Of a stretch of DNA of 54,201 bases, positions 13,239-53,577 are shown piece by piece (positions within the stretch are counted from its first letter, which is position 1; each line of letters starts with the position of its first letter). Under the pieces are notes generated by a model, which saw only the letters and a list, made by a program, of their open reading frames with translations, made no database searches and was not told where the DNA came from. Origin of the DNA: Spirochaetae bacterium HGW-Spirochaetae-4 (GTDB lineage Bacteria; Spirochaetota; Spirochaetia; Sphaerochaetales; Sphaerochaetaceae); contig PGXU01000020.1 in NCBI GenBank assembly GCA_002839335.1, forward strand, positions 1 to 54,201, in the 5' to 3' direction. A program made the translations under genes and the position numbers.

Positions 13239-13930
13239 GCCGGACCTCCAAGTTGGGCCCTAAGCACCTTCTCCAACGCGAAGAATTCGGTCCGGTTGCG
13301 CAAGTCCTTGGCACCATGGTGCGGATTTTCCGTTTCGAAACGTATACCATCCGGCTGCATGACAAGAATCCTGGAACCCATGAATATCGCCTCCTGGATG
13401 CTGTGGGTGACCATGATCAGGGTGATGCCTTTGGTAATTACGAATTCCTTGATCTCCTGTTGCAGCAGTTCCCTATTCTGTTCATCGAGTGCGGCCAACG
13501 GTTCGTCCAGCAACAGCAGCCGCGGATTCCTGACGAGGCTTCGGACCAGGGCGACCCGTTGCCTCTCTCCACCGCTGAGCTGTTGCGGATACTTTTTCCT
13601 GTGTCCGTACAGACCCATCCGATCCAACAGCATTTCGGCTTGCCCCACGTAATCCTTGGTAAGCCCCAGCAACACATTTCCAAGGACCGTTTTCCAGGGG
13701 AGCAACCGATCCTGTTGGAACATGATGCTGCAAGCCTCGGTGCCACCGGTAAGCGACAACGTCCCCTGTGATAGTGGAAGGAGACCGGCAATGGCGTAGA
13801 GCAGGCTGGTCTTGCCGCATCCGCTTTTTCCGATGATGCTGACCATCTCGCCCGGTTTTACTGCCAGGGTGAAATTGGCGAAAGCAATATGCCTGGGGTA
13901 ATCGAGGCGGGCATCGGAGATGGTGACCAT
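13235..13930 (-). CDS. ABC transporter ATP-binding protein (SsuB/TauB type)
   Basis: A 231-residue ATPase with Walker A GKSGCGKTS (about 34-42), Q-loop FQQDRLLPW, signature LSGGERQR, Walker B LLLLDEPLAALDE and the switch histidine in MVTHSIQEA. It powers import through the neighbouring permease. The PWKTVLGNV sequence after the Q-loop is typical of the nitrate/sulfonate/taurine subfamily. The start lies 2 bp from the receptor gene's stop, consistent with one transcript. Confidence 0.95.
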   Translation of the reverse strand: MVTISDARLDYPRHIAFANFTLAVKPGEMVSIIGKSGCGKTSLLYAIAGLLPLSQGTLSLTGGTEACSIMFQQDRLLPWKTVLGNVLLGLTKDYVGQAEMLLDRMGLYGHRKKYPQQLSGGERQRVALVRSLVRNPRLLLLDEPLAALDEQNRELLQQEIKEFVITKGITLIMVTHSIQEAIFMGSRILVMQPDGIRFETENPHHGAKDLRNRTEFFALEKVLRAQLGGPA

Positions 13931-13932
13931 TG

Positions 13933-14886
13933 CTATTGCCGCACGAACCGTGGATCAAGCATTGCGGATGGTTCCAATATGTATTCCCTACCGGTGACAG
14001 TTCCTGTCCATGCAATGATCTCCTTGGTGAATCCATCGCTAGGCAACCGCGGAGCATGATATTCGGGGAGATGCATTGTATCCCGTACCGCAGGTGGCAG
14101 GTTCGGAATCACTTTCATGAGGACATCGCGCGCCAGTTCGGGATTCCGCTGCAGATCCGCTACTGCCCGTCCATAGGCGATGTGGAATGAACGGATAGCC
14201 GATTCTTTTTCGGCGATCGCCGATTTCGTGAATGCAATGATATTCAGGCTCTCGCTGGGGATTCCCTCGAATACGATTTTTTCCAATCCACGCAAGGCGC
14301 CGATCGATGCGAACGGCTCGGGGAATATACCGGTGTCCAATTGCCCGGAGACTACCGCCTCGAGTCGAGCCGGTATTTCATTGATAAAGACTTTCTCAAT
14401 CTCGTACTTCGGTGCAAGGTACTGTTCCAACAGATAGTTGGTGACACTGATCTCCATGGTTCCCGCCGAGACCGACTTCTTTCCGTCCAACGGCCCTGTC
14501 GCGAGCAACGGGAAATCTCCGTCGGTGGAGAGGGTCCCTGTCAGCGCGAAATCGCTGTCTGTTTGTGTTATCAGTGCAACCAGGTCGGTCATTGCTCCGT
14601 CGACCTGTCCGGTCTGCAAAGCGGTCTGCCGGTTCTGTCCGTTGGTGAAGAGGATCAACTCGACATCGACTCCCTCTTGCGTAAAGTAGCCTTCCTGCAG
14701 GGCATGGTAAAATGGAGCCGAATCGACCGCACTCATCATACCGACCTTCAATGTTGGCAAGGGCTCGGTACGGATGGATTCTTCAATGGTGGTATTGGCA
14801 CTGGTTTCGGTTTTAGGTTTGTTGCACCCGGCGAGTGCAAGGACAGTTGTAAGTATACAGAGTATTGCGATGATTCGGTTGCGCAT
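13933..14886 (-). CDS. Substrate-binding lipoprotein (NMT1/ThiY-like)
   Basis: A 317-residue protein with signal peptide and lipobox ALAGC (Cys21), so it is membrane-anchored on the outer face of the inner membrane. The mature part follows the NMT1/SsuA-type fold: LKVGMMSAVDSAPFYHALQEGYF near the N terminus, the ligand-site phrase NGQNRQTALQTGQVDGAM, and GQLDTGIFPEPFAS. It delivers the ligand to the permease and ATPase encoded directly downstream. GAGAGG precedes the ATG. Ligand identity is open (sulfonate, pyrimidine or related). Confidence 0.9.
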   Translation of the reverse strand: MRNRIIAILCILTTVLALAGCNKPKTETSANTTIEESIRTEPLPTLKVGMMSAVDSAPFYHALQEGYFTQEGVDVELILFTNGQNRQTALQTGQVDGAMTDLVALITQTDSDFALTGTLSTDGDFPLLATGPLDGKKSVSAGTMEISVTNYLLEQYLAPKYEIEKVFINEIPARLEAVVSGQLDTGIFPEPFASIGALRGLEKIVFEGIPSESLNIIAFTKSAIAEKESAIRSFHIAYGRAVADLQRNPELARDVLMKVIPNLPPAVRDTMHLPEYHAPRLPSDGFTKEIIAWTGTVTGREYILEPSAMLDPRFVRQ

Positions 14887-40088: not shown

Positions 40089-40576
40089 ATGTCCCCCATT
40101 TCTTGAGAATCCGTGTATCAGATGATGTTTTTGATGTGACAGCATATCATATTTCGGACGATTGGCAATACAGGAAATAACAAATTCAGTGCATTTGGAT
40201 TGCTGTGGTGAACGAGGTATCCGAAGACCTTCGGATATGTCATGCGTTGTAAGATGGGGTCCTTTTTTGGACGAAGTTCCGAACGATTTTACACGATGCG
40301 TAAACCATGGGGAAAGTTAGCCCAGCGAATCGATCTTCCAGTAAGCAACTCGTATTCCAAAGAATACATGATAGCTTAGCGGGTATCGACACGCCGATTG
40401 TTGGGGTTGCGCTATCTCCGACACAAAGCTACCCGGACATCCGAATCTTCGCTTGCATCGTAGTGATACTGGGATTCGTGATTCGTGAACGTAATTATAA
40501 ATCTTTTCAAGTATTGTAAATATAGTTAATTGTTGATAGAATTTAATAGTAAATAATTATAAGTATGGAGTAATTG
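40089..40576. other. Gene-free region upstream of the exported-protein gene
   Basis: No credible coding sequence; a 70-residue frame at 40307-40519 has no protein character. A perfect hairpin TATCCGAA-GACC-TTCGGATA lies at 40218-40237. The last 80 bases are very AT-rich. The promoter for the upstream minus-strand gene lies at 40141-40168. Confidence 0.45.
40141..40168 (-). promoter_or_regulatory. Predicted promoter of the GAF-GGDEF gene
   Basis: On the minus strand TTGCCA (40168-40163), 16 bp and TATGCT (40146-40141), 52 bp before the ATG. Confidence 0.5.
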
Positions 40577-41191
40577 ATGAAAAAAGTATTAGTCTGTGTT
40601 CTGATGTTGTCTATTGTCGCTGGAAGTGTATTCGCTGTTGGCTTTGTCGGGGGCAATGTGTTTGTCGGCAACGATTCGTTCGAAGAGGAAAATCGGGAAA
40701 CATCCATCGATCAACTTGGACTGGTCTTGTCAGGAGCCCATTATGTAGGGGAAACACCCGGAATTGGCATCGGGTATACCATTGGTGTTGGATTTGCTTC
40801 GGCGTCGTATACATCAGGTGTTTTCGAATGGGATGTGGAAACCGACCCGTTTTCGTTCAACGCTTCTGTAGCTGCCCAATATATAGTGGGATTAAACGAA
40901 GCCGCATACATTGAGTTCGGAGTTGGTCTGGGATACCTTGGGGTTGCCTCTACCTATTCCCTTCTGGGTGAAGAATATGTCGCATTGCTGAACATCACAA
41001 AATTCGAGATGAAAACCGGTGGTATCATTACGATTTCCAAAGGTCTGAACGTTGGGGCCGGTGCGGTATTCTCCTTTCCCTTGGCCGTGACCGGAACATT
41101 TGATTCCTCTTCCGAGTCGTCGCCTCCCGACCTCTCTTTCGATAGCGGTTTTGGTGTAAAGGGATACCTCGGGACGTATATCAAGTATTAA
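40577..41191 (+). CDS. Exported beta-barrel-like protein
   Basis: About 204 residues. The signal peptide MKKVLVCVLMLSIVAGSVFA is followed by glycine-rich alternating strands, such as GIGIGYTIGVGFASASYT and GVGLGYLGVAST, ending in GYLGTYIKY. This pattern suggests an outer-membrane beta-barrel of about eight to ten strands. The start at 40577 follows GGAG. A terminator separates it from the transporter operon. No named family is assigned. Confidence 0.7.
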   Translation: MKKVLVCVLMLSIVAGSVFAVGFVGGNVFVGNDSFEEENRETSIDQLGLVLSGAHYVGETPGIGIGYTIGVGFASASYTSGVFEWDVETDPFSFNASVAAQYIVGLNEAAYIEFGVGLGYLGVASTYSLLGEEYVALLNITKFEMKTGGIITISKGLNVGAGAVFSFPLAVTGTFDSSSESSPPDLSFDSGFGVKGYLGTYIKY

Positions 41192-41220: not shown

Positions 41221-41250
41221 AACGGGTAGGCCTGCATGTGCCTACCCGTT
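41221..41250 (+). terminator. Terminator after the exported-protein gene
   Basis: AACGGGTAGGC pairs perfectly with GCCTACCCGTT over 11 bp around CTGCATGT. It isolates the next operon's control region. Confidence 0.85.
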
Positions 41251-41274: not shown

Positions 41275-41346
41275 TCGGTTCTATCGGCTAGCGTTCCGGT
41301 TCAGGTCGGGATTTGACCGGTTCGGAAGGAATCTGACCCTGTTCAT
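41275..41346 (+). promoter_or_regulatory. Array of four direct repeats at 21-bp period (LytTR-type boxes)
   Basis: TCGGTTCTA (41275), CCGGTTCAG (41296), CCGGTTCGG (41317) and CCTGTTCAT (41338) start exactly 21 bp apart, all with a GTTC core. LytTR regulators bind pairs of 9-bp repeats with a central GTT, about two helical turns apart. The last repeat ends 10 bp before the -35 element, in an activator position. The likely binder is the LytTR protein at 47995-48747. Confidence 0.7.
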
Positions 41347-41356
41347 CGGATTCTTT

Positions 41357-41385
41357 TTGAATACGATTGTACATGGATATACAAT
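41357..41385 (+). promoter_or_regulatory. Promoter of the transporter-kinase operon
   Basis: TTGAAT (41357-41362), 17 bp and TACAAT (41380-41385). ATTGTA (41366-41371) and TACAAT form a 6-bp inverted repeat with an 8-bp spacer across the promoter, a possible second operator. Confidence 0.65.
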
Positions 41386-41409: not shown

Positions 41410-42495
41410 ATGATGAAACGTTTATTGGTAATCGTCATGTTCATCGCATGCGCCACGATGGTTTTTGCCGCAGGTGCACAGGAAAGTGCCGCTCCCGCAG
41501 CAGATGCCGGCCACGGTGAAACAGAGTTGGTCGTCTATAGTACGATTTTCGCAGAGTATGCGGAAGCAATGAAGGCAGGCTTCGAAGCCTTGCACCCGGG
41601 AGTCACCGTCAATGTGTTGAACCCAGGTGGAACAGAAGCCATGTTCAAGAAATTGGAATCAGAATCAGCCAATCCACAGGCAGACGTCGTGCACGCCGGT
41701 TCGATGATCAATTATCAACATGCGATTGAAATGGGTCTATTGGAGCCCTATGCTCCACAAGCACCTGGTTTCAAATCCTCCATTCCCGTAGGCGGTAGCA
41801 GACTTGAGCTGAGCCACCCGGAGAATTACTACCATGTCTGGTCGTTGATGTTTACTGGTGTCATGTACAACACACAAGTACTCGAGCGGTACAACCTGCC
41901 TATTCCCAGGACCTACACGGACCTGACCAATCCAGTCTACAAGGACCAGATTATCAGCGCAGACCCCTTGAAGTCCTCGACCGCAAGCTCGAACGTTGTC
42001 GCCATGTTGCAGATCTACGGAGATGAAGCTCCCAAGTTGTGGGAAGGCATCAACGCCAACCTGCCGTACTATTCCGGCTCAAGCTCCCGTATCTACACAT
42101 TGGTCAGCAAGGGTGAGTTCGCCATGGCCATTGGTCTCTCTCGTCCAGCCCTGGTTGCGATGCAAGAAGGCTATCCGGTCAATTTCCTGTTCCCCGAAGA
42201 CGGAAGCCAGGTCTATGACAACTCCATGGCTTTGGTCAAAGGTGCCAAGCACCCCAACCTGGCAAAAGAGTTCATCGACTACATCTTGAGTGATGAAATG
42301 CAGCTCAAGGGCGCCGAGTATCTCTATATCCCCGTGAAACAGGGCGTCATGGACCCCTCGTTGCCGGTTAGCCTTGAAAGCGTCACAAAGGATATGGGCA
42401 CTATCTACGCTCCGGATCCCGCGCTCGCAGAAGAGAATCGTGAACTGATCCAAAACACCTTCGGTGAATACATCAGAACCAAAGGCACGAAATAA
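41410..42495 (+). CDS. Extracellular solute-binding protein (FbpA/AfuA type)
   Basis: About 360 residues. The signal peptide ends VFAAGAQES without a lipobox cysteine. The mature part has the ferric-ion/organophosphate binding-protein fold: LVVYSTIFAEYAEAMKAGFE, MYNTQVLERYNLPIPRTYTDL and SKGEFAMAIGLSRPAL. Related proteins bind ferric iron, 2-aminoethylphosphonate, phosphoglycerate or hexose phosphate. AGGAGG lies four and seven bases before two adjacent ATGs. It opens the operon with two fused permeases, one ATPase and a two-component pair and would present the ligand to both transport and sensing. Confidence 0.9.
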   Translation: MMKRLLVIVMFIACATMVFAAGAQESAAPAADAGHGETELVVYSTIFAEYAEAMKAGFEALHPGVTVNVLNPGGTEAMFKKLESESANPQADVVHAGSMINYQHAIEMGLLEPYAPQAPGFKSSIPVGGSRLELSHPENYYHVWSLMFTGVMYNTQVLERYNLPIPRTYTDLTNPVYKDQIISADPLKSSTASSNVVAMLQIYGDEAPKLWEGINANLPYYSGSSSRIYTLVSKGEFAMAIGLSRPALVAMQEGYPVNFLFPEDGSQVYDNSMALVKGAKHPNLAKEFIDYILSDEMQLKGAEYLYIPVKQGVMDPSLPVSLESVTKDMGTIYAPDPALAEENRELIQNTFGEYIRTKGTK

Positions 42496-42554: not shown

Positions 42555-44183
42555 ATGATGAAGAAAACCTACGTATTTTCCTGGTTCCATATAGCCTATG
42601 CAGTAGCAACGCTTTTTCTATTCATGTTTCTATTGCTGCCGATCGTTAAACTATTCACAGGATCATTCAGCATGATCTTCGCAAGTGAGGATCCACTGCC
42701 AGCAGGATTCTTCACCTATCTTCTTCGTGTAACAGGCAACACATTGCGCATGGCATTCCTCACCACAGGATTTGCCGTACTTATCGCCGTCCCGTTGGGA
42801 TTCCTGATCGCCAAACTGCAGATTCCCGGTGCCTCCATTTTTCTGGGCGTCCTATCGATTCCCTTGATTACCCCGGCATTCATCTCCAGCTTCGCCACCA
42901 TCATCCTACTGGGCAATAGTGGTGTACTCACCATGTTCTTCGAGTTGTTGGGTATCGATCTTCCCTCCATCTATGGCCTTCGAGGTCTCGTGATCACTCA
43001 GGTGTTGCACGCGATGCCCTATGCATTGCTGTTGATCATTACCGGATTGAAGACTGTTCCCCGCCATCTTGAAGAGGCTTCCATGTCCTTGGGAAACAGT
43101 GCGCTGAAAACCCAGTTCTCGATCGTACTTCCCTACATTTCTCCCCATATCCTCATGGCGGCCCTCATGGTTTTCCTCACATCCATGGGCGATGTCGGTG
43201 GTCCGTTGATCATCGGTGGCAGCTACCAGGTTATTTCCACCGGAATATACAACAACTTCATCACCTACATGGGTGACGAGCGCATTCCGATTATCTTCGG
43301 GGCATGGACCTTGGTCTTGTCGTTCATCATGCTGTTCATCGTAAGCCGCCTGATGAAGTTGACCGAAATAAAGCACAGGTTCAGGATCGGGCAGATGACC
43401 TATGATCGTCCGAAGGCCCGCAAGGCTGGATTGGTTCTGCTTGTATTCGTTTCCCTGATATTCATGGCACCCTATATCGCCATTGTCATCCAATCGTTCG
43501 GAACCATCTGGGCCTACGATTGGTTGCCCCGTGAATTCACCACCAACAACTATGTGAAGGCCCTGAGTGACATCTTGCCGATCAGGAACACCATCATCCT
43601 CCTTCTGACAGTCACCCCGATCCTGGTGGTTCTCAGTGTGATCTTCGCCCATATGTTCAAGAACCGGAAGATGCTGCGCTGGATCAACTATTTCACGTTG
43701 TTGCCATTCACCATACCGGGAGTTATCATCGCGGTGAGCCTTTTGCAGACCTATTCGGGGGTTTCCTTGGGTCGCAGGGACCTGATCGCCTCGGTGTACA
43801 TACTGATCATAGCGATCAGCATCCGGCGGCTTCCATTCGTCCTGAAGATCATCGAGGCCGGTTTTTCCAAGATCGACGATTCCCAGCAGGAGGCTGCCTT
43901 CAGCTTGGGGGCATCCGACGTCAAAGCCTTCTTCTCAGTTCTGCTCCCACAGTTGAAGCCCGCCATATCCATGGCTATAGTCATCGGTATGATCAAGGTT
44001 GTCACGGAACTCTCGTCCAGTTTGATGTTGAATCCACCCGGATGGAGAACCATGTCGCTGTATATCGCCTATTTTGTCGAAGAAGGGTTCCTCTCACGAG
44101 CGGCTGCCATGGGTGTTGTGCTCATAGCGATTGTCGGAATCGGAACAGCCATATCCAACAGTATGAAGAAAAAGGTAAGGTAA
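42555..44183 (+). CDS. Fused two-domain ABC permease (FbpB type)
   Basis: A 542-residue permease with two tandem six-helix halves, as in FbpB/AfuB. The first EAA loop is PRHLEEASMSLGNSALKTQF and the second DSQQEAAFSLGASDVKAFF, both intact for docking the ATPase. The start is one of two adjacent ATGs (42555 or 42558) after GGAG. A second permease of the same architecture lies downstream, fused to a histidine kinase. This one is presumably the transporting partner of the shared ATPase. Confidence 0.93.
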   Translation: MMKKTYVFSWFHIAYAVATLFLFMFLLLPIVKLFTGSFSMIFASEDPLPAGFFTYLLRVTGNTLRMAFLTTGFAVLIAVPLGFLIAKLQIPGASIFLGVLSIPLITPAFISSFATIILLGNSGVLTMFFELLGIDLPSIYGLRGLVITQVLHAMPYALLLIITGLKTVPRHLEEASMSLGNSALKTQFSIVLPYISPHILMAALMVFLTSMGDVGGPLIIGGSYQVISTGIYNNFITYMGDERIPIIFGAWTLVLSFIMLFIVSRLMKLTEIKHRFRIGQMTYDRPKARKAGLVLLVFVSLIFMAPYIAIVIQSFGTIWAYDWLPREFTTNNYVKALSDILPIRNTIILLLTVTPILVVLSVIFAHMFKNRKMLRWINYFTLLPFTIPGVIIAVSLLQTYSGVSLGRRDLIASVYILIIAISIRRLPFVLKIIEAGFSKIDDSQQEAAFSLGASDVKAFFSVLLPQLKPAISMAIVIGMIKVVTELSSSLMLNPPGWRTMSLYIAYFVEEGFLSRAAAMGVVLIAIVGIGTAISNSMKKKVR

Positions 44184-44189
44184 CGTACT

Positions 44190-45281
44190 ATGTCTGAAAT
44201 AATCATCGAGCGTCTGCAGAAGAATTTTGGAAATACCGAGGCAGTCAGGGATTTGTCGATTTCGATCGAGAAGGGTGAACTGGTCTCCCTGCTCGGACCT
44301 TCGGGTTGTGGCAAGACGACATTGCTGCGCATGGTGGCTGGTTTCGAGAGTCCTACGAGCGGAAAGATATTTCTCCGGGAGCGTAACCTCGTCGAAGTTC
44401 CCCCACAAAAACGGAACATCGGGATCGTATTCCAGGATTATGCGATTTTCCCGACCATGAACGTGTTCAACAATGTCGCCTACGGACTGAAGATCAAGAA
44501 ATTCGACAAACAGCAGATTGCTTCTCTAGTGGCCGAATATTTGGAATTGGTGGGGCTGACCGGCTATGAGAAGCGGATGCCGGCGCAGTTGTCGGGTGGG
44601 CAGCAGCAACGTGTTGCACTGGCAAGAGCGTTGGTGATCAAACCCGATGTGCTGTTGCTCGACGAACCGTTGTCGAATTTGGACGCTGCCTTGCGGCTCA
44701 ATATCCGCAAGGAAATCCGGAAGATCCAACAGGCTTTGGGAATCACCACGATCTTCGTCACGCATGACCAGGAGGAGGCCCTCTCGATCTCAGACAAGGT
44801 GTTTGTCATGCGACAAGGCGAGTTGATGCAGGGAGGTGCCCCTGAAGTGATTTATCGTCGACCGAACAACGACTTTGTGGCCGGTTTCATTGGGAAATCC
44901 AATATCATGTACGGTAAGGTTCTGGATTACACCGACGGCGTGACCAGTGTCGAGGTCAACGACAAGACCTTCCATGTGAAGACCGACGAGGTTATCGCGA
45001 AGGGCACCGAAGTCTGGGTTTCTTTGAGACCACAATATATTCGCCTCAACGAGCAGTCGACCGACACCTATGACAATACCTTCCACGGAACGATTAACTA
45101 TATCGAATATCTTGGAGGTCTTGTAAAAGGCGAAATCCTGATGTCTAATGGACTGACGTTGGAATTCGAACAACCGATCAGGGGCAATTCAGCTCCCGAT
45201 CTACAGAAATCCCAGGAAGTATCGGGGATATTCTCTTCCGATGATCTGGTGGTGGGGAGAAATATCCGCCGGATGGACTGA
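44190..45281 (+). CDS. ABC transporter ATP-binding protein (FbpC/PotA type)
   Basis: A 363-residue ATPase with Walker A GPSGCGKTT (36-44), Q-loop VFQDYAIFP, signature LSGGQQQR, Walker B LLLDEPLSNLD and switch-region FVTHDQEEAL. A C-terminal TOBE-like regulatory extension follows (about 240-360). It is the only ATPase in the operon, so it would serve the upstream permease and could also bind the kinase-fused permease downstream, which keeps EAA-like loops. The start lies 6 bp after the permease stop. Confidence 0.95.
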   Translation: MSEIIIERLQKNFGNTEAVRDLSISIEKGELVSLLGPSGCGKTTLLRMVAGFESPTSGKIFLRERNLVEVPPQKRNIGIVFQDYAIFPTMNVFNNVAYGLKIKKFDKQQIASLVAEYLELVGLTGYEKRMPAQLSGGQQQRVALARALVIKPDVLLLDEPLSNLDAALRLNIRKEIRKIQQALGITTIFVTHDQEEALSISDKVFVMRQGELMQGGAPEVIYRRPNNDFVAGFIGKSNIMYGKVLDYTDGVTSVEVNDKTFHVKTDEVIAKGTEVWVSLRPQYIRLNEQSTDTYDNTFHGTINYIEYLGGLVKGEILMSNGLTLEFEQPIRGNSAPDLQKSQEVSGIFSSDDLVVGRNIRRMD

Positions 45282-45319: not shown

Positions 45320-47998
45320 GTGAATAGAGTAGTGGCACGAATTCCCAGGATTCTACTCCTGCTTCCACCGATCCTATTGGTGATCGGCTTCCTATTGGTG
45401 CCTATCGTACATCTTTTGACCAAAGGGTTGGGTTCGGCTTTGACAGCAGCCGAACCCTTGCCCGCATATCTGTGGCCCCATTTGCTCAATGTGACGAAAA
45501 ACACCTTTATCCTCGGTTCCCTCGCGACCTCGATTTCCCTGCTGGTCGCCTTGCCGCTTGCTTTCCTGCTGGTGCGGACCAATGTATTCGCTTCCCGCTT
45601 CTGGCTATCGCTGTTGACCATCCCCATGATCACTCCACCGTTCATCATGGCATTCGCTGTGCTTTCGTTGTATGGCCGAAGCGGCATCGTATCGCTGTTG
45701 TTCCAGCGCATCGGTGTATTCTTTCCCCATATTTTCGGACTCCCCGGACTCCTGATCAACCAATTGATCGTCTCGATACCGTATGCGACCTTCATTATCG
45801 CCGCCGGATTGCAGGGAGTGCCAAGGCATATCGATGAGACGGCGGCTTCCTTGGGGACTTCGAATATGCGTGTCCTGTTCGACCTCACCATCCCGTGCAT
45901 CTCTCCGCATATCATCATCTCCGGACTCATGATTTTCCTCATGGCTATCGGAGATATCGGTGGTCCGTTGGTGATTGGAGGCGGTTATGCGGTACTTTCA
46001 TCGGAAATCTATACGAATTTCCTCTCACTGTTGAACGATGAACGCGTCGCCTTGATATTCAGCCTATGGATCATATTGCTGTCGTTTCTGCTATTGGCAG
46101 TCGTCAATCGTCTGATCAGGTCCACAACCCGTGAATACCGCAGGGGGCTTTTTCCCGTGGTGTATCGGTTGGGAACCTTCCGGGTACCCGCGACCATGTT
46201 TGTTGTGATTGTCTTCGTGCTGTTGCTGGCACCATTTCTCATGACATTGGTGCAATCGTTCATCACAATCTGGAGTTACGACCTGTTGCCCCAGGGCTGG
46301 ACCCTGTTGAATTACAAGAGGGTGTTCAAGACACCCGGAATGCTGCTCGACACCTTGCGCATGTCGGTGTTGGCAACCTCTGTGATTGTGTTTTTCGGGC
46401 TCGTCCTGGGACACACCATGTACTTCAAGCGGGCCTGGCGGTTCATCGACTATATTCTGGTGATTCCGTTCGTCCTTCCCGGTATCGTGTTGGCGGTCGG
46501 GGTCTTGGGTGCCTATGCGGGATTCTTTCCCCAAAACCATCCCATTCCATTCTATACCCTGTTGTTGTTTACCATAATCGCCCGCCGGTTGCCTTTCAGC
46601 CTGAAGACCCTCGAAGCGGGATTCCTTGTTGCCGATTCCCGGAGGGAGGAGGTCGCAAGAAGCCTGGGGAGCAACCAATTGACATCATTTCTCCACATCA
46701 CGCTGCCCCAAATGAAATCATTCATCTTTGCCGCATTCATAATCGGTTTGGTGAAGACTTCCACCGAATTGTCTGCATCACTCATATTGGCTCCACCCAA
46801 CTGGAAGAGCCTGTCGCTGGGAATCATGCATTTCATCGACCAGGGCCAACTCTCGATGGCCGCCGCCCTCAGCATCATGTTGGTTGCGGTGGTAGGGTTG
46901 GGGACCGCACTGGTCGCCTTCTGGTCGCAGAAACCGGTGGGGGTGGAGCAGAAGCAATCGCACGATGCCCTTGAACGGTTGATTCTCGGCAGGACTCCCA
47001 TGGCGCTCTATGAGGGTTCCGCGAAGCGGAGGAAACAGAAACAAGGGCTAGGCTTGTATCGTCGTTCACGGGAACCGTTTCTGGTCATAGTGGACCGTAA
47101 GGGTATTGTCGAGGCCAACCACTCGTTTTTGAGACTTGTCGGAGCCGATTCCTTGGCTCAAGTGCAAGCGGAAAGTAGCTTCTCGACACTATTCTTCGGA
47201 GACCGCGAGGTGTTGGAGTTGTTCACTTCCATGGAATCGATCGAGAATAGGGCCACCTCCATGTTGGTTCTCGATGGGAGCCGTATTCCCATTATCCTGA
47301 ATGCCTACGTCATGTTGACCACCGATGGGTTCAAGCGGGTTGTCTTCTACTGCCGCAAGGTAACGGGACGTTCAAGGCGGGTCAAGGAATACACCCGGTT
47401 GCGAGAACGGATGATGCTTGCCCAACAGATGGCACTGAAGGCCCAGATCACCCCCCACTTCCTGTTCAACTCGCTCAACAGTGTCATGCAACTGGTGGAC
47501 AGCAATCCCAAGGAAGCGAATGAGACATTGCAGAATCTGGCTGACCTCTACCGGTACATCCTCTCTTCCACCAAACTCGATTTGGTTCCTGTTTCCGACG
47601 AGATCGCGTCCATGCACCATTACCTTGGGGTCGAGAAGGCCAGGTTTGGCAAGAAGCTTACCTACAAGGTCGAGATGGACCCGCTGGTCGCAAACTTCCA
47701 GATTCCGCCCATGTTGATCCAACCGATCGTGGAGAATGCTGTCAACCATGGGGCGAAGGCGACCGGTGAGATAGATATCACCGTTTCGGTGTATCCGAGT
47801 AGGGACGGTGTGAAAATATGTGTGGAGGATCGTGGAGACAGCGTGTTCGATCCCTTGGAAGTCGCCACCGGGACCGGAACGGGGCTGAAGAATGTTGAAG
47901 GAAGATTGTTCGCATTGTATCATAGGAAAATCGCGTACGAGCGAAAGAGTGGTGGTGGTCTCATGGTTACCATGACGATTCCAAGGAATTTGCCATGA
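45320..47998 (+). CDS. ABC permease fused to a LytS/YehU-type histidine kinase
   Basis: An unbroken 892-residue frame. Residues about 1-545 are a two-half FbpB-type permease with EAA-like loops IDETAASLGTSNMRVLF and SRREEVARSLGSNQLTSFL. Residues about 575-690 are PAS-like. Residues about 695-892 are a complete kinase: acceptor His713 in QITPHFLFNSLN, N-box LIQPIVENAVNHG and G-box TGTGLKNVEGR. The GTG start follows AGGA. It overlaps its LytTR regulator by 4 bp. A likely transporter-derived sensor; whether it also transports is unknown. Confidence 0.92.
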   Translation: MNRVVARIPRILLLLPPILLVIGFLLVPIVHLLTKGLGSALTAAEPLPAYLWPHLLNVTKNTFILGSLATSISLLVALPLAFLLVRTNVFASRFWLSLLTIPMITPPFIMAFAVLSLYGRSGIVSLLFQRIGVFFPHIFGLPGLLINQLIVSIPYATFIIAAGLQGVPRHIDETAASLGTSNMRVLFDLTIPCISPHIIISGLMIFLMAIGDIGGPLVIGGGYAVLSSEIYTNFLSLLNDERVALIFSLWIILLSFLLLAVVNRLIRSTTREYRRGLFPVVYRLGTFRVPATMFVVIVFVLLLAPFLMTLVQSFITIWSYDLLPQGWTLLNYKRVFKTPGMLLDTLRMSVLATSVIVFFGLVLGHTMYFKRAWRFIDYILVIPFVLPGIVLAVGVLGAYAGFFPQNHPIPFYTLLLFTIIARRLPFSLKTLEAGFLVADSRREEVARSLGSNQLTSFLHITLPQMKSFIFAAFIIGLVKTSTELSASLILAPPNWKSLSLGIMHFIDQGQLSMAAALSIMLVAVVGLGTALVAFWSQKPVGVEQKQSHDALERLILGRTPMALYEGSAKRRKQKQGLGLYRRSREPFLVIVDRKGIVEANHSFLRLVGADSLAQVQAESSFSTLFFGDREVLELFTSMESIENRATSMLVLDGSRIPIILNAYVMLTTDGFKRVVFYCRKVTGRSRRVKEYTRLRERMMLAQQMALKAQITPHFLFNSLNSVMQLVDSNPKEANETLQNLADLYRYILSSTKLDLVPVSDEIASMHHYLGVEKARFGKKLTYKVEMDPLVANFQIPPMLIQPIVENAVNHGAKATGEIDITVSVYPSRDGVKICVEDRGDSVFDPLEVATGTGTGLKNVEGRLFALYHRKIAYERKSGGGLMVTMTIPRNLP

Positions 47999-48747
47999 AG
48001 AAGAGTGTATGTATCATAGATGACGAGTTTCGTTCCCGTGAACGTATTCGGGATATCTTGGCCGATAGCGAGGAATATACCATTGTCGGCGAGGCCGACA
48101 ACGGCAGGGCGGCGGTGGAGCTCATCGACCGGGCCTTGCCCGATATTGTCCTTCTTGATATCAAGATGCCAGGTCTTTCGGGCTTCCAGATATTGCAGGA
48201 GGCAACCCACAAGCCTTCGGTGATCTTCATAACCGCGTATAATGAACACGCGGTGAGGGCGTTCGAGGTCCATGCAGTGGACTATGTGCTCAAGCCGTTC
48301 CAGGACAAGCGGTTGTTCGATGCACTCGCACGGGTACCGAATACCACGGTCCCTGGCGATACGATACTCCAGCAGTTGGGAACTATGGTGGAAGGAACGG
48401 TCCAACCAAAACACTATCTCAAGCGCTTCACGGTCAAGGACCGGTTCGAGTTCAAGGTTATCGATGTCCAGGACATCGATTACTTCTCCACCGAGGACAG
48501 CTTTGTTTTCCTGCATACCGACGGAGTCCGGTATGTTGTGGAGAAGAGTTTGGCCCAAATCGAGGAGAGTGTCAGTCCGGAACTGTTTTTCCGGGTACAC
48601 AGGAAGTCGTTGGTAAACCTCAACAGGGTGGAGCGGATCCTACCGTGGGGGCGCGGACGGTATGTCCTCAAGTTCTCCAACGAGGAACGGGTCCATGTGA
48701 GCAAAGAGAAGACCCGCGAGCTGAAGGCCCTCATGGGGTTGTTGTGA
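47995..48747 (+). CDS. LytTR-family response regulator
   Basis: A 250-residue regulator. The receiver domain (1-120) has acidic Asp9/Asp10, acceptor Asp55 in LLDIKMP and the conserved lysine in YVLKPF. The C-terminal LytTR DNA-binding domain (about 145-250) has VKDRFEFKVIDVQDIDYF and FFRVHRKSLVNLNRVERI, the usual landmarks. The ATG overlaps the kinase stop by 4 bp. The 21-bp-period repeats upstream of the operon are its probable target, giving a feedback loop. Confidence 0.95.
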   Translation: MKKSVCIIDDEFRSRERIRDILADSEEYTIVGEADNGRAAVELIDRALPDIVLLDIKMPGLSGFQILQEATHKPSVIFITAYNEHAVRAFEVHAVDYVLKPFQDKRLFDALARVPNTTVPGDTILQQLGTMVEGTVQPKHYLKRFTVKDRFEFKVIDVQDIDYFSTEDSFVFLHTDGVRYVVEKSLAQIEESVSPELFFRVHRKSLVNLNRVERILPWGRGRYVLKFSNEERVHVSKEKTRELKALMGLL

Positions 48748-48791: not shown

Positions 48792-48820
48792 TTGCACACC
48801 TCACGTGTGAGTGATACACT
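48792..48820 (+). promoter_or_regulatory. Predicted promoter of ktrB, nearly leaderless
   Basis: TTGCAC (48792-48797), 17 bp and TACACT (48815-48820), ten bases before ATG 48831. CTCAC-GT-GTGAG lies within the spacer and could be an operator. No Shine-Dalgarno sequence is present. Confidence 0.5.
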
Positions 48821-48830
48821 ACCGCCCATC

Positions 48831-50132
48831 ATGAGAACTCCGATGCGGAAGACGCTTCCGCCAAGTCAGTATCTGATTTCCGGGTTTTTTGCAATCATAC
48901 TCGTGGGATCAGCATTGCTTTCGCTTCCCTTTGCCCACCGTGAGGGCATCCAACTTGCATATATAGACGCACTGTTCACATCATTCAGCGCCGTTTGTGT
49001 GACCGGGCTGGTTACCGTGGATGTGGCAGCAACGTTCACCCTATTCGGTAGGGCTATAATTGCCGTATTGATACTGTTGGGTGGCATGGGCTTTGCCGCG
49101 GTCATCATGTCCATCGTGTTGATGCTGGGGTGGGACGTCGGTATCTCGCAACGTACCCTGCTCAGCGAAGCCTACAACCTAGGCACGCTCAGAGGTACAT
49201 TGGTAATCGTAAAGACAGTCGTATTCGCCTCGGTGATGTTCCAAATTGTGGGAACCGTGCTGGGGTACTTTGTGTTTCGTCTGGACTATTCTCCGCTCGA
49301 TGCGTTGGGACATGGCCTGTTCCATGCAATTTCAGCTTTCAACAATGCCGGATTCGATCTCATGGGGAATTTCGACAGCATGATGAATTATCGGCACAAT
49401 GTCTTGCTCAATCTGCTTACCATGTTCCTGATCGTTTCGGGTGGATTGGGCTTTTTCGTGCTCAGCGATGTCTTCCGCAAACGGTGGAATTTTCGGAAGT
49501 TCACCATGCATACCAAGATTGTATTGAGCGTGACCGCATTTCTCATTGTCTTTGGGACGGTGGTCATTTCCCTGGTCGAGCGAATGGATATCCTTTCGGC
49601 GCTTTTCCAGAGTGTCACGGCCCGTACCGCGGGATTCAATACCATCGATACCGGCTCCCTTTCAACGTTCAGCCTATTCTTTGTGGTGCTGCTCATGTTC
49701 GTGGGAGCCTCGCCCGGTTCCACCGGTGGTGGTATCAAGACGACCACGACCTTTGCGATCTGGTTGAGTCTCATGAGCCTTGCTTTCGGAAAACAACCTG
49801 CTGCCTTCAAACGTCGTATTCCCGAAGACAGTCTGCTCAAGGCATTCCAGGTCCTCATGTTGGCTTTGTTGACTGTTACATTCGGTTCCTTGGCATTGGC
49901 CCTGTTCGAAGGACAACACTTTTCCTTCATGCAGCTGATGTTCGAAGGTGTTTCGGCCTTCGCGACGGTCGGATTATCGACCGGAATCACAACCGAAATA
50001 GGCTCCGGGGCGAAAATAGTACTTATGGTGATGATGTTTGTGGGTAGACTTGGACCGATTACGGTCGCGACAAGTCTCAAGACCCGGGAAGCGCGCCTCA
50101 AGCATGTTGAGGAACGCATATTCATTGGTTGA
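48831..50132 (+). CDS. ktrB: Potassium-uptake channel subunit KtrB/TrkH
   Basis: About 433 residues with the four membrane-pore-membrane repeats of TrkH/KtrB. The filter loops are AVCVTGLVTVD, AFNNAGFDL, ARTAGFNTID and FATVGLSTGI, each with the conserved glycine that lines the potassium path. Length favours the shorter KtrB type over TrkH. The gate subunit KtrA is encoded 20 bp downstream. ATG 48831 is chosen; ATG 48843 is possible. Transcription should begin close to the start codon. Confidence 0.93.
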   Translation: MRTPMRKTLPPSQYLISGFFAIILVGSALLSLPFAHREGIQLAYIDALFTSFSAVCVTGLVTVDVAATFTLFGRAIIAVLILLGGMGFAAVIMSIVLMLGWDVGISQRTLLSEAYNLGTLRGTLVIVKTVVFASVMFQIVGTVLGYFVFRLDYSPLDALGHGLFHAISAFNNAGFDLMGNFDSMMNYRHNVLLNLLTMFLIVSGGLGFFVLSDVFRKRWNFRKFTMHTKIVLSVTAFLIVFGTVVISLVERMDILSALFQSVTARTAGFNTIDTGSLSTFSLFFVVLLMFVGASPGSTGGGIKTTTTFAIWLSLMSLAFGKQPAAFKRRIPEDSLLKAFQVLMLALLTVTFGSLALALFEGQHFSFMQLMFEGVSAFATVGLSTGITTEIGSGAKIVLMVMMFVGRLGPITVATSLKTREARLKHVEERIFIG

Positions 50133-50152
50133 AAAATTCTAGAGGTGAAACG

Positions 50153-50830
50153 ATGAAACATTCAGGACATGACGTGAATTCTTTCGGTATTATCGGGCTG
50201 GGCCGTTTCGGGACAGCCTTGGCCTTGGAGCTTGTGAAGGCAGGCAAGGATGTGGTCGTGCTCGAAATCGACGAATCCAAACTCAACGCGGTCAAGGATA
50301 TCATCGAACATATCTATCCTGTCGATGAAATTACGCAGGATATCCTGATAGACTCCGGTATTTCCCATTGTGGAACCGTAATCGTATGTATTGGAAAAGA
50401 TATCGAGAGCAACATCCTCGTCACATTGAATGTATTGGAACTTGGTGTCCCGCGTGTAATCGCGAAGGCGAACAGCGACGATCATGGACGTGTCCTGAAG
50501 AAGATCGGTGCCGAGGTGATCTATCCCGAAGTGGAGATGGGTACTCGCTTGGCCAAGTCCCTGGTCACCCTGAGAACCTTGGATTTCCTTGAATTGGATG
50601 AGGATATATCGATATCCGAGATACTGCTTTCCAAGCATTTCGATAACAAGACCGTGGACCAGCTCAATTTCAGGAAGCGCTTCAAACTCAATATCATCGC
50701 GATAACTCACAATGATAAGACCGAGGTCGATATCGCACCCGATACGCTGCTGTATACAAATGACGAGATTGTGGTTATCGGACGCAACGAGGATCTCCAG
50801 CAGTTCCAGAATTACAACTCGCGTCCTTAG
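50153..50830 (+). CDS. ktrA: Potassium-channel regulatory subunit KtrA
   Basis: A 225-residue protein with an N-terminal RCK/TrkA-N Rossmann domain (GLGRFGTALALELVKAGKDVVVLE near 12-35, with GxGxxG) and a TrkA-C domain (about 140-225). It forms a cytoplasmic ring that gates KtrB on binding ATP/ADP or NAD(H). ATG 50153 follows AGAGGTGAAA. It lies 20 bp after ktrB and is cotranscribed. Confidence 0.94.
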   Translation: MKHSGHDVNSFGIIGLGRFGTALALELVKAGKDVVVLEIDESKLNAVKDIIEHIYPVDEITQDILIDSGISHCGTVIVCIGKDIESNILVTLNVLELGVPRVIAKANSDDHGRVLKKIGAEVIYPEVEMGTRLAKSLVTLRTLDFLELDEDISISEILLSKHFDNKTVDQLNFRKRFKLNIIAITHNDKTEVDIAPDTLLYTNDEIVVIGRNEDLQQFQNYNSRP

Positions 50831-50999: not shown

Positions 51000-51055
51000 T
51001 TGAATTGAGATTCCGATACATCGTCAAGCAACAATCCCATACAAGGGGCGTACTG

Positions 51056-51553
51056 ATGAAAGGTTTTCTTGTCCGATTGAAAGCACTGCTGGTTCTGTAC
51101 GCGGTGTGGCTCGCTCTCATGGCTCCGCTTTCGACCCAGGATCTGGCGGCAGGGTTGGGTATAGTCCTCGTATTGGTGTTGTTGCCATTGCCAGGATTGT
51201 CGATCTACCGTGAAATATCGTTGGCTCCGAAGCGAATCCTGTTCTTCATCCTCTATATCGGTGTCTTGTTGATCGAGATATGCAAATCGAATATCGACGT
51301 CGCATTGCGTGTGGTTCAACCGGTCATTCCTATCCAACCGGGAATCGTCAAGGTATCCACAAGACTGACTTCGAGATTGGGCCGTTGGGTACTAGCCAAT
51401 TCCATCACCCTAACTCCCGGAACCATTACGGTCGAAACAAAGGGTGGGGACCTGTATATCCACTGGATTTCAGTAACCGCCGATGACGTCGACTCCGCAA
51501 CCAAGAAGATTGTGAACCAATTCGAGAAATATCTGGAGGTAATCTTTGGCTAA
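51056..51553 (+). CDS. mrpE: Mrp/Mnh antiporter subunit E
   Basis: A 165-residue membrane protein of the MnhE/MrpE family. It has hydrophobic helices near residues 8-27, 30-46 and 56-75, then the soluble tail with KVSTRLTSRLGRWVLANSITLTPGT, the family's conserved core. Start MKGFLV at 51056 follows an AAGGGG site. It is first in a tightly packed operon E-F-G-MbhD-B-C-D for sodium or proton exchange. Confidence 0.92.
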   Translation: MKGFLVRLKALLVLYAVWLALMAPLSTQDLAAGLGIVLVLVLLPLPGLSIYREISLAPKRILFFILYIGVLLIEICKSNIDVALRVVQPVIPIQPGIVKVSTRLTSRLGRWVLANSITLTPGTITVETKGGDLYIHWISVTADDVDSATKKIVNQFEKYLEVIFG

Positions 51554-51806
51554 TACCATATTCCTCATCGCGGCCGCCATCATGTTGGTAGCCATGACCA
51601 TCGCATTCTTCCGCATCATCCGGGGACCTGAACTGGGTGATAGGATTGTCGCACTCGATGCCATGACCATCATGGCGCTCTCGGCAGTCGCCTTCTTGGC
51701 GCATCACCTGGGACGAGCCATCTATCTGGATGTGGCGCTTGTGTACGGCTTGATCAGCTTTCTCGGGGTCGTAGCGGTCGCCAGACATATGGAAAGGGGG
51801 CTATGA
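51546..51806 (+). CDS. mrpF: Mrp/Mnh antiporter subunit F
   Basis: An 86-residue three-helix protein of the MnhF/MrpF family, with RIIRGPELGDRIVALDAMT near residues 23-41, a conserved motif of the subunit. The start is a TTG at 51546, supported by GGAGG six bases before it; the gene overlaps mrpE by 8 bp. Part of the membrane arm of the cation antiporter. Confidence 0.9.
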   Translation: MANTIFLIAAAIMLVAMTIAFFRIIRGPELGDRIVALDAMTIMALSAVAFLAHHLGRAIYLDVALVYGLISFLGVVAVARHMERGL

Positions 51807-51807
51807 T

Positions 51808-52203
51808 ATGGAAATTCTTGCCATAATCGGTTCGTTCGTCTCCCTGATCGGAGCGTTCTTCCTGCTTCTTGCGGCAATAGGAATCATCCGGATGCCGGAT
51901 ACCTATAACCGCATGCAGACAGGTACGAAGGCAACCACCTTGGGAAGCATGCTCTTCTTTGTCGGGATAGGACTGGCACATCCATCGTGGTGGACCAAAC
52001 TCCTCATCCTCACCGTGTTCATATTCCTTACAAATCCACTCTCTTCCCATGTGCTGGCCAGGGCGTTGCACTTCATTGGCAAGAGCCCCTTGGTCGAGCC
52101 GTATTCTGGACCGTCGGTACGGGATGATCTCGCTTTCGATGAGGCACAAGCCGTGTTGGCCGCCGAAGGTTCCCGGCAGATGGAGAAGGGGGAAGCCGAA
52201 TGA
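51808..52203 (+). CDS. mrpG: Mrp/Mnh antiporter subunit G
   Basis: A 131-residue protein of the MnhG/MrpG family. Three helices and the conserved IIRMPDTYNRMQTGTKATTLGSML near residues 26-49. An acidic C-terminal tail (about 100-131) is longer than average. It starts 1 bp after the mrpF stop and its end overlaps the next gene by 4 bp. Confidence 0.9.
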   Translation: MEILAIIGSFVSLIGAFFLLLAAIGIIRMPDTYNRMQTGTKATTLGSMLFFVGIGLAHPSWWTKLLILTVFIFLTNPLSSHVLARALHFIGKSPLVEPYSGPSVRDDLAFDEAQAVLAAEGSRQMEKGEAE

Positions 52204-52508
52204 GTCAGCTCATGCTCGTCCTGTTCGGACTGTTGATGCTTGTTGGGGCCGTCGCCGCCCTCTACCTGAAGGATACCGTCTCCGCAATCCTGGCCGCCGG
52301 ATCGGTATCGTTGGTGGCTAGCCTGGTATATCTGCTCCTCGGTGCCCCGGATGTCGCCATGACCGAAGCCGCTATCGGATCGGCCTTGACGACAGTGGTC
52401 TTCCTATTCTCGTGGGCGCGGATACAACATCGTCCCCAACCGTCCAAAAGCTCGCAATCCGAGGAGACCGATTCGAACCCTGATGATCAGGAGGACCACC
52501 AGCTATGA
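52200..52508 (+). CDS. MbhD-like/DUF4040 antiporter subunit
   Basis: A 102-residue protein with three helices and the phrase GAPDVAMTEAAIGSALTTVVFL near residues 49-70, matching MbhD/DUF4040 and the C-terminal part of MrpA. In bacterial Mrp operons this segment is normally part of the large MrpA; here it is separate, as in archaeal Mbh complexes. It has a polar, charged tail. It overlaps both neighbours by 4 bp. Confidence 0.87.
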   Translation: MSQLMLVLFGLLMLVGAVAALYLKDTVSAILAAGSVSLVASLVYLLLGAPDVAMTEAAIGSALTTVVFLFSWARIQHRPQPSKSSQSEETDSNPDDQEDHQL

Positions 52509-53221
52509 TGAAACGTCTGATCATAATCCTGGCATTGGCTGCGATTGCCCTCGGATTCTTTCCCCTTGCGATGCGGATTTCGGGAGACTCCGGTCTCACG
52601 GCCCTCGCCACGCACTATGTCGAGGCGGGTGCGGATGAATTGGGCGCGGCGAACCTCGTGACCTCCGTGGTTGTCAGTTATCGCGGATTGGATACGTTGG
52701 GTGAAGTAATGGTCCTGTTCACGGCAACGACCGGTGTAACGGCTCTGTTGGTTGCCGGGAAATCCAAATCCCACAAGAAGGAAAAGGATTCGGAACCTGA
52801 TGGTGATGGACGTCGCGAAGGCTCTGAACTGCTTGCGACCGGTGCCGCCTTTCTGTTTCCGATCCTGATTCTGTTCGGCATCTACATCTTTCTCAATGGA
52901 CACCTTACACCGGGAGGCGGATTCCAAGGTGGGGTCGTACTGGCCTCCGCGTTCCTGTTGCTGCTGTTCTCGGACTGTCGCCTGGAGCTCAACCATGCCC
53001 TGTTGAAAGGTGCCGAAGCCATCTCTGGCGCTGCATATGTCGCTGTTGGGCTGCTCGGCCTTTGGTTGGCTGGTGGATTTCTGGACCCGCGGTTTCTTCC
53101 GGCAGGAGAATTCGGCCAACTGTTCAGTGCCGGAGCGATTCCCATCATCTATATCCTGATCGGTATCAAGGTCGGATCCGAATTGACCGGCATTGTCGAT
53201 GCCATGCGGAGGTGTTCCTGA
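52505..53221 (+). CDS. mrpB: Fused MbhE-MrpB antiporter subunit
   Basis: A 238-residue protein in two parts. Residues 1-85 resemble MbhE (NLVTSVVVSYRGLDTLGEVMVLF); a charged linker (about 86-105) joins an MnhB/MrpB domain with HLTPGGGFQGGVVLASAFLLL near residues 131-151. In archaeal Mbh clusters these are usually two genes (mbhE, mbhF). The ATG overlaps the preceding gene by 4 bp. Confidence 0.87.
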   Translation: MMKRLIIILALAAIALGFFPLAMRISGDSGLTALATHYVEAGADELGAANLVTSVVVSYRGLDTLGEVMVLFTATTGVTALLVAGKSKSHKKEKDSEPDGDGRREGSELLATGAAFLFPILILFGIYIFLNGHLTPGGGFQGGVVLASAFLLLLFSDCRLELNHALLKGAEAISGAAYVAVGLLGLWLAGGFLDPRFLPAGEFGQLFSAGAIPIIYILIGIKVGSELTGIVDAMRRCS

Positions 53222-53577
53222 TGACGCACATAGTGCTGGCAATCGGTTTCCTATTGGTATGTATAGGATTCTGGGGACTGATGACACGAAGGGAAGTCTT
53301 TCGCATGATAATCAGCTTTTCCCTGTTGGACACCGGAGTCCATGTGATCATGGTCGGTATCGGCTATGTCCGCGCAGGTACCGCCCCAATTTTTGACGAG
53401 GCACTCGCAGTCGCGGGCGCTGTCGGCAAGGTGGTCGATCCCGTTCCGTCCGCATTGGTCCTGACCGCAATCGTCATTGGATTGGCAGTGACTGCACTTA
53501 TGCTCAGTTTCGCCATCCGTTTGCACGCCTCCCGTGGAAGCCTGGCAGTCGATGACATGAAGGAGTTGAAATGGTAA
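53221..53577 (+). CDS. mrpC: Mrp/Mnh antiporter subunit C
   Basis: A 118-residue NuoK-like protein with three helices, of the MnhC/MrpC family; the C-terminal stretch PVPSALVLTAIVIGLAVTALMLSFAIR is characteristic. The A of its ATG is the last base of the preceding stop codon. It would form part of the ion-translocating membrane arm. The next gene overlaps it by 7 bp. Confidence 0.92.
   Translation: MTHIVLAIGFLLVCIGFWGLMTRREVFRMIISFSLLDTGVHVIMVGIGYVRAGTAPIFDEALAVAGAVGKVVDPVPSALVLTAIVIGLAVTALMLSFAIRLHASRGSLAVDDMKELKW

Follow-up and report, generated by a model that had tools for sequence, protein, structure and literature searches.

The signalling of substrate arrival from importers to the cell has mostly been studied with transporter and kinase as separate proteins. 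Fusions of the two are known, among them the CbrA type (PMC7096432, PMC13022988) and Ks-Amt5 (PMC5764959). CbrA and CrbS/RpuS, called transceptors (PMC7096432, PMC13022988), combine a transporter domain, a PAS domain, DHp and CA in one chain, as does the protein described here. For the membrane part they have a secondary symporter (SLC5) in a single chain, with a STAC linker, whereas ours is an ABC importer permease, which normally needs a substrate-binding protein (SBP) and an ATPase, with a LytS-type kinase and a LytTR regulator. Pfam found neither an SLC5 nor a STAC domain in our fusion. For Ks-Amt5 of Kuenenia, recruitment of a whole transporter fold to sense for a C-terminal kinase, as we propose here, has been proven (PMC5764959). 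Ks-Amt5 differs in being a trimeric ammonium transporter with a HisKA kinase and with neither PAS domain nor SBP, and no ammonium transporter or HisKA domain was found in our fusion by Pfam.

Other systems share parts of this arrangement. In BceAB-BceS an ABC transporter also informs a kinase, but these are separate proteins in a complex (PMC10314905), and the transporter is a peptide-resistance ABC transporter rather than an SBP-dependent importer. LytS, YpdA and BtsS (5TMR) have the same His_kinase and HATPase type with a LytTR regulator, but their membrane domain resembles ECF S-components and not a BPD_transp_1 permease (PMC11109136). The closest solved structure to our permease part, FbpBC of Thermus thermophilus (9j4r), has two fused halves and no kinase. 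UhpC is related to the transporter UhpT. UhpC, UhpB and UhpA are like our system in that uptake of organophosphates is induced by a sensing complex in the membrane that includes a kinase, but they are separate proteins with an MFS fold and without an ABC importer (UhpB/UhpC sensing: PMC4546632).

Here we describe a locus in which an importer permease and a kinase are covalently joined, with an unfused paralogue of the permease alongside as a natural control. The initial annotation had put forward that no fusion of an ABC importer permease to a histidine kinase was described; none was found in the literature searched, with most subscription papers outside it, and the claim holds provisionally. 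The new element relative to the known transporter-kinase transceptors is thus, provisionally, the ABC importer. We propose that the pore itself probably signals nutrient arrival and turns its own operon on.

Results

The window, by which we mean the whole 54,201-nucleotide stretch analysed, contains an operon with two complete membrane pores, one ATPase, one SBP and one regulator (Table 1). The kinase is joined to the second pore. Its open reading frame (45320-47998, + strand) runs from a GTG start to TGA without a break and encodes 892 residues. Pfam identified, all in one chain, BPD_transp_1 as two stretches, both above the PF00528 cut-off, His_kinase at residues 702-780 (PF06580, 82.1 bits against a cut-off of 25.2) and HATPase_c at 799-889 (31 against 26.4). 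The N-box (VENAVNHG, residue 804) and G-box (GTGTGLKN, residue 851) accompany the acceptor His713, as in a LytS-type kinase. The unbroken frame and the full LytS/YehU-type kinase of the initial annotation were therefore both borne out, the latter by Pfam and motif positions, and the two EAA-like loops that it had described as kept were found at residues 170 and 441.

Two BPD_transp_1 halves, each with an EAA-like loop, are the pattern of the two-half FbpB/ThiP type I importer permeases. The permease part also keeps the GDxGxPLxIGG and TELSxSL motifs. The label FbpB-type, given earlier, proved right for the fold, which matched 9j4r over 485 residues (Z 35.2, rmsd 3.0); as to the substrate it is a tentative name. 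The match to TIGR03262 (PhnU2, 2-aminoethylphosphonate permease), at 156.8 bits, fell under the trusted NCBIfam cut-off of 593.

Table 1. Features of the operon and its upstream region, with examples of related kinases; positions are those of the window unless a locus is named.
Feature	Position	Strand	Remarks
Three 9-bp direct repeats	41296..41346	+	probable LytTR regulator site
Repeat 1, CCGGTTCAG	41296-41304	+	
Repeat 2, CCGGTTCGG	41317-41325	+	
Repeat 3, CCTGTTCAT	41338-41346	+	
Promoter-like site, TTGAAT-17-TACAAT	41357..41385	+	10 bp past last repeat; 9/12 matches
SBP, SBP_bac_6 group	41410..42495	+	Pfam; nearest solved relatives 8x1a, P5PA, AfuA
P1, unfused two-half permease	42555..44183	+	paralogue of fused permease (39% identity)
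ABC ATPase with TOBE_2 domain	44190..45281	+	sole ATPase of operon
Fusion, permease part (residues 10-536)	45347..46927	+	two BPD_transp_1-type halves; EAA loops at residues 170, 441
Fusion, basic linker (537-586)	46928..47077	+	low model confidence; pLDDT <50 at 550-552, 554-585
Fusion, PAS-like domain (587-680)	47078..47359	+	sub-threshold Pfam, predicted structure, PDB matches
Fusion, His_kinase (702-780; His713 at 47456-47458) and HATPase_c (799-889)	47423..47986	+	Pfam, structure matches, motifs
LytTR response regulator	47995..48747	+	receiver Asp55 and LytTR domain; start overlaps fusion stop by 4 bp
~690-aa kinase relative	L070 2796-4862		
~690-aa kinase relative	L071 5927-7978		
~690-aa kinase relative	L073 6453-8492		

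In an AlphaFold model of the fusion (mean pLDDT 83.9, 56 sequences), the helical permease extends to residue 536 and is followed by a linker of low confidence (~550-585), a domain of PAS-like fold (587-680) and the DHp and CA domains of the kinase. The PAS-like region claimed from the sequence was below threshold by Pfam (PAS_9, 21.6 bits against 27), and its predicted fold is PAS-like. PDB structures matching the model include PAS/LOV-histidine kinases, and the nearest solved relative of the same kinase type is GanS (6swj, 6swk). Each of the PDB matches listed spans either the permease or the kinase part, with no permease-kinase chain among them. With a transporter fold and a signalling module in one chain, the architecture is that of a transceptor in our working sense.

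The low confidence of the linker between TM12 and the PAS domain suggests that it may be flexible, in which case tight coupling by mechanical means is less evident. Cytoplasmic signals are a common input of PAS domains, and such a linker would also suit a protein in which the permease part simply tethers the kinase to the membrane and the PAS domain responds to a cytoplasmic signal, independently of transport. We consider this improbable: a permease of 530 residues, under purifying selection and with ATPase-docking loops, exceeds the needs of an anchor, and the same SBP, P1 and ATPase partners recur across four families. A sensory role for the permease part itself is the reading that we prefer.

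Full-length orthologues of the fusion were found in three other genomes, at 96% (L009), 69% (L010) and ~36% (G570, locus L067) identity. In all three the SBP, P1 and ATPase genes adjoin the fusion, and the order of the operon's genes is the same in L009 and L010. The initial annotation had asked whether the junction might be an assembly fusion. That neighbouring genes were joined by an assembly error or a frameshift can be ruled out, as independent assemblies contain the fusion at all three levels of identity and purifying selection acts on both sides of the junction. In G570 (L067 12714-13580) some 630 bp separate the regulator (13345-14100) from the fusion, and a frame open in the opposing direction lies between them.

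Two further copies are incomplete. That of G603 (L068) runs off the contig edge, with regulator and binding protein following; its P1 and ATPase sit on a separate contig. The G540 copy is decayed, with stops and internal deletions. Across L069 3719-9748, stops or frame breaks and apparent deletions affect the SBP, P1 and fusion genes, and the ATPase and regulator frames are open, a pattern that could reflect either a system in decay or errors of assembly.

Counting the truncated and decayed copies, the carriers belong to four families, all within one class of spirochaetes. When 393 genomes sampled from the phylum were searched at E 1e-60, the genome of the window was the sole match; the remaining carriers came from searches of the class, family and order. 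By group searched, the fusion was found in 3 of 139 genomes (the window's own counted), 1 of 4 and 1 of 26, and in the order of G540 in one of eight, all eight from a single family. Neither the fusion nor the binding protein was found in the genus-mate G224. G601 has a P1-type permease on a contig that ends just past the ATPase and is uninformative on the fusion. The searches that reached beyond the Spirochaetota were a scan for close relatives in 84,980 species genomes, which gave two loci in all, and a tblastn of plasmids, where the matches listed were to the permease only and none spanned 80% of the query. Because the searches of genomes and literature were bounded, both the restriction to spirochaetes and the undescribed status of the fusion are provisional.

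The presence of P1, which the initial annotation had not noted, means that the fused permease is a duplicate and need not be the working pore. In all six species pairs compared it was less conserved than P1, with identities such as 71 against 89%, 37 against 57%, 39 against 61% and 46 against 68%. Between the window and L010, dN was 0.08 for the SBP, 0.09 for P1 and 0.13 for the ATPase, as against 0.24, 0.25 and 0.20 for fused permease, kinase and regulator, respectively. The fused permease thus has a dN close to those of the kinase and regulator and unlike those of P1 and the SBP, which suggests that it evolves with the signalling parts.

EAA-like loops are kept in both pores, so either could dock the ATPase, and as the importer motifs are largely retained in the fused copy it might itself transport. 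The fused permease could then be a working second importer that shares the SBP and ATPase, with the kinase reading its transport cycle much as in BceAB-BceS. The complete FbpBC fold would fit this, as would the EAA loops, the GDxGxPLxIGG and TELSxSL motifs, and the purifying selection on the permease part (dN/dS of 0.047 against L009). CbrA, moreover, is reported both to transport and to act as a kinase (PMC7096432). We nevertheless think such flux sensing unlikely, as the operon already has a dedicated and far better conserved permease in P1, and only 99 of the 255 columns invariant among the P1 proteins are retained in all fused copies. The rate pattern is the one expected of a permease maintained for its signalling and not for transport in bulk and, though it falls short of proof, the divergence data favour a sensor role over a reading of the main transporter's pumping.

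In a permease tree, the P1 proteins grouped with the fused permeases in a single clade (100/100) that excluded the remaining spirochaete permeases of the tree. This fits a duplication inside the operon, with the branching within the clade left unresolved. The kinase tree placed the fusions in a single group at 64/71, so that one origin of the fusion is favoured, weakly. Relatives of the kinase of ~690 residues have, in those examined, a different N-terminal membrane or sensor region followed by a PAS domain and a LytS-type kinase, and several of them, in spirochaetes, adjoin sugar-type ABC genes and a LytTR regulator. This group is the likely source of the kinase part, and the simplest history is that the sensor part of such a kinase was swapped for the duplicated permease. 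Besides truncated or broken fragments, open frames of the kinase group in 395 genomes of the class were of ~685-755 or 905-917 residues, and no other fusion of the group was found among these genomes.

The repeats lie between the SBP gene and the gene preceding it and form an array with a period of exactly 21 bp and gaps of 12 bp, the cores lying at 41299, 41320 and 41341 and the consensus being CC[GT]GTTC[AG][TG]. There is a degenerate fourth core at 41278. Over both strands of the 54-kb window it is the sole triple of GTTNRK at 20-22 bp steps. The same array is present in L009 and similar ones in G540 and G603, with steps of 20-21 bp and all 5' of the SBP gene; in G570 the region 5' of the SBP gene had no paired repeat. 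Shuffled sequences matched the observed pair count upstream in 0 of 4000 cases for the window, 0.05% for L009, 0.025% for G540 and 0.25% for G603. As the GTTNRK core was picked after viewing the array in the window, and with an eye to the published work on LytTR, the array is tested more fairly in the other genomes; of these G540 and G603 are the more independent, since L009 is a near copy of the window.

LytTR sites are direct repeats of 9-11 nt with gaps of 11-13 nt, often 10 bp before the -35 element (PMC4847170, PMC6193735). The operon pairs a regulator that has receiver and LytTR domains with 9-nt repeats and 12-nt gaps upstream. It seems probable that the array binds this regulator. One promoter-like site was found downstream of the repeats, against 0.6 expected from shuffles, which is weak taken alone.

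The nearest solved relatives of the SBP are 8x1a, P5PA (pyridoxal phosphate) and AfuA (hexose phosphates). Phosphate is held by Ser37 and Thr150 in AfuA and by Thr37, Ser147 and Thr149 in P5PA (PMC4546632, PMC8427247), and in our alignment the phosphate-holding loops line up with conserved residues of the SBP, a GGT loop and the SST of DPLKSSTA falling at about these positions. The sugar-binding His205 and Asp206 of AfuA are replaced (SRP). The predicted structure of the SBP was too poor for use (pLDDT 41.6, five sequences). The protein looks like a member of the organophosphate-binding AfuA/P5PA/PhnS group more than the iron-binding FbpA, and our best guess is a phosphorylated or phosphonate ligand. 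An iron importer, as the name would imply, is not supported, P5PA and AfuA being among the nearest solved SBPs. AfuA had itself been annotated for iron and proved to bind sugar phosphates (PMC4546632).

Discussion

The fused protein appears to us, on balance, to be a transceptor derived from a duplicated importer permease, which senses the loaded SBP and autoregulates its operon. P1, the ATPase and the SBP would form the working importer. The second permease still has an importer fold, with its pathway motifs and the loops for docking the ATPase, and would have gained a PAS-LytS kinase at its cytoplasmic end. Docking of the ligand-loaded SBP, possibly together with the shared ATPase, would shift the conformation of the fused permease, and the change would pass through the PAS domain and the DHp helix to alter how active the kinase dimer is. 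The kinase would then pass phosphate to the LytTR regulator transcribed with it, and binding of this regulator to the 21-bp-spaced repeats would raise transcription of the operon, giving substrate-induced autoregulation. As the initial annotation put forward, the protein may sense at its pore either the delivery of ligand or the state of pumping.

Whether this amounts to a new class of receptor, in which a duplicated ABC importer pore joined to a kinase uses the importer's own SBP and ATPase and autoregulates through LytTR, seems to us evenly balanced. It would add ATP-driven, SBP-dependent importers to the transporter-kinase transceptors, beside symporters and ammonium transporters. Altering one permease and not the other would part transport from sensing, a long-standing difficulty.

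The operon has neighbours on both sides. Just 5' of it, a gene at 40574-41191 encodes a small predicted secreted or outer-membrane-like protein and is kept in L009. An inverted repeat after this gene (41222-41250, acgggtaggc ... gcctacccgt), absent from the terminator scanner's list, is possibly its terminator. The potassium-uptake genes TrkH and TrkA (48792-50830 and 51005-53577) begin 45 bp past the regulator; they are not retained beside the fusion in L010 and were left out of the system. Beyond them lie genes resembling an Mrp-type antiporter operon.
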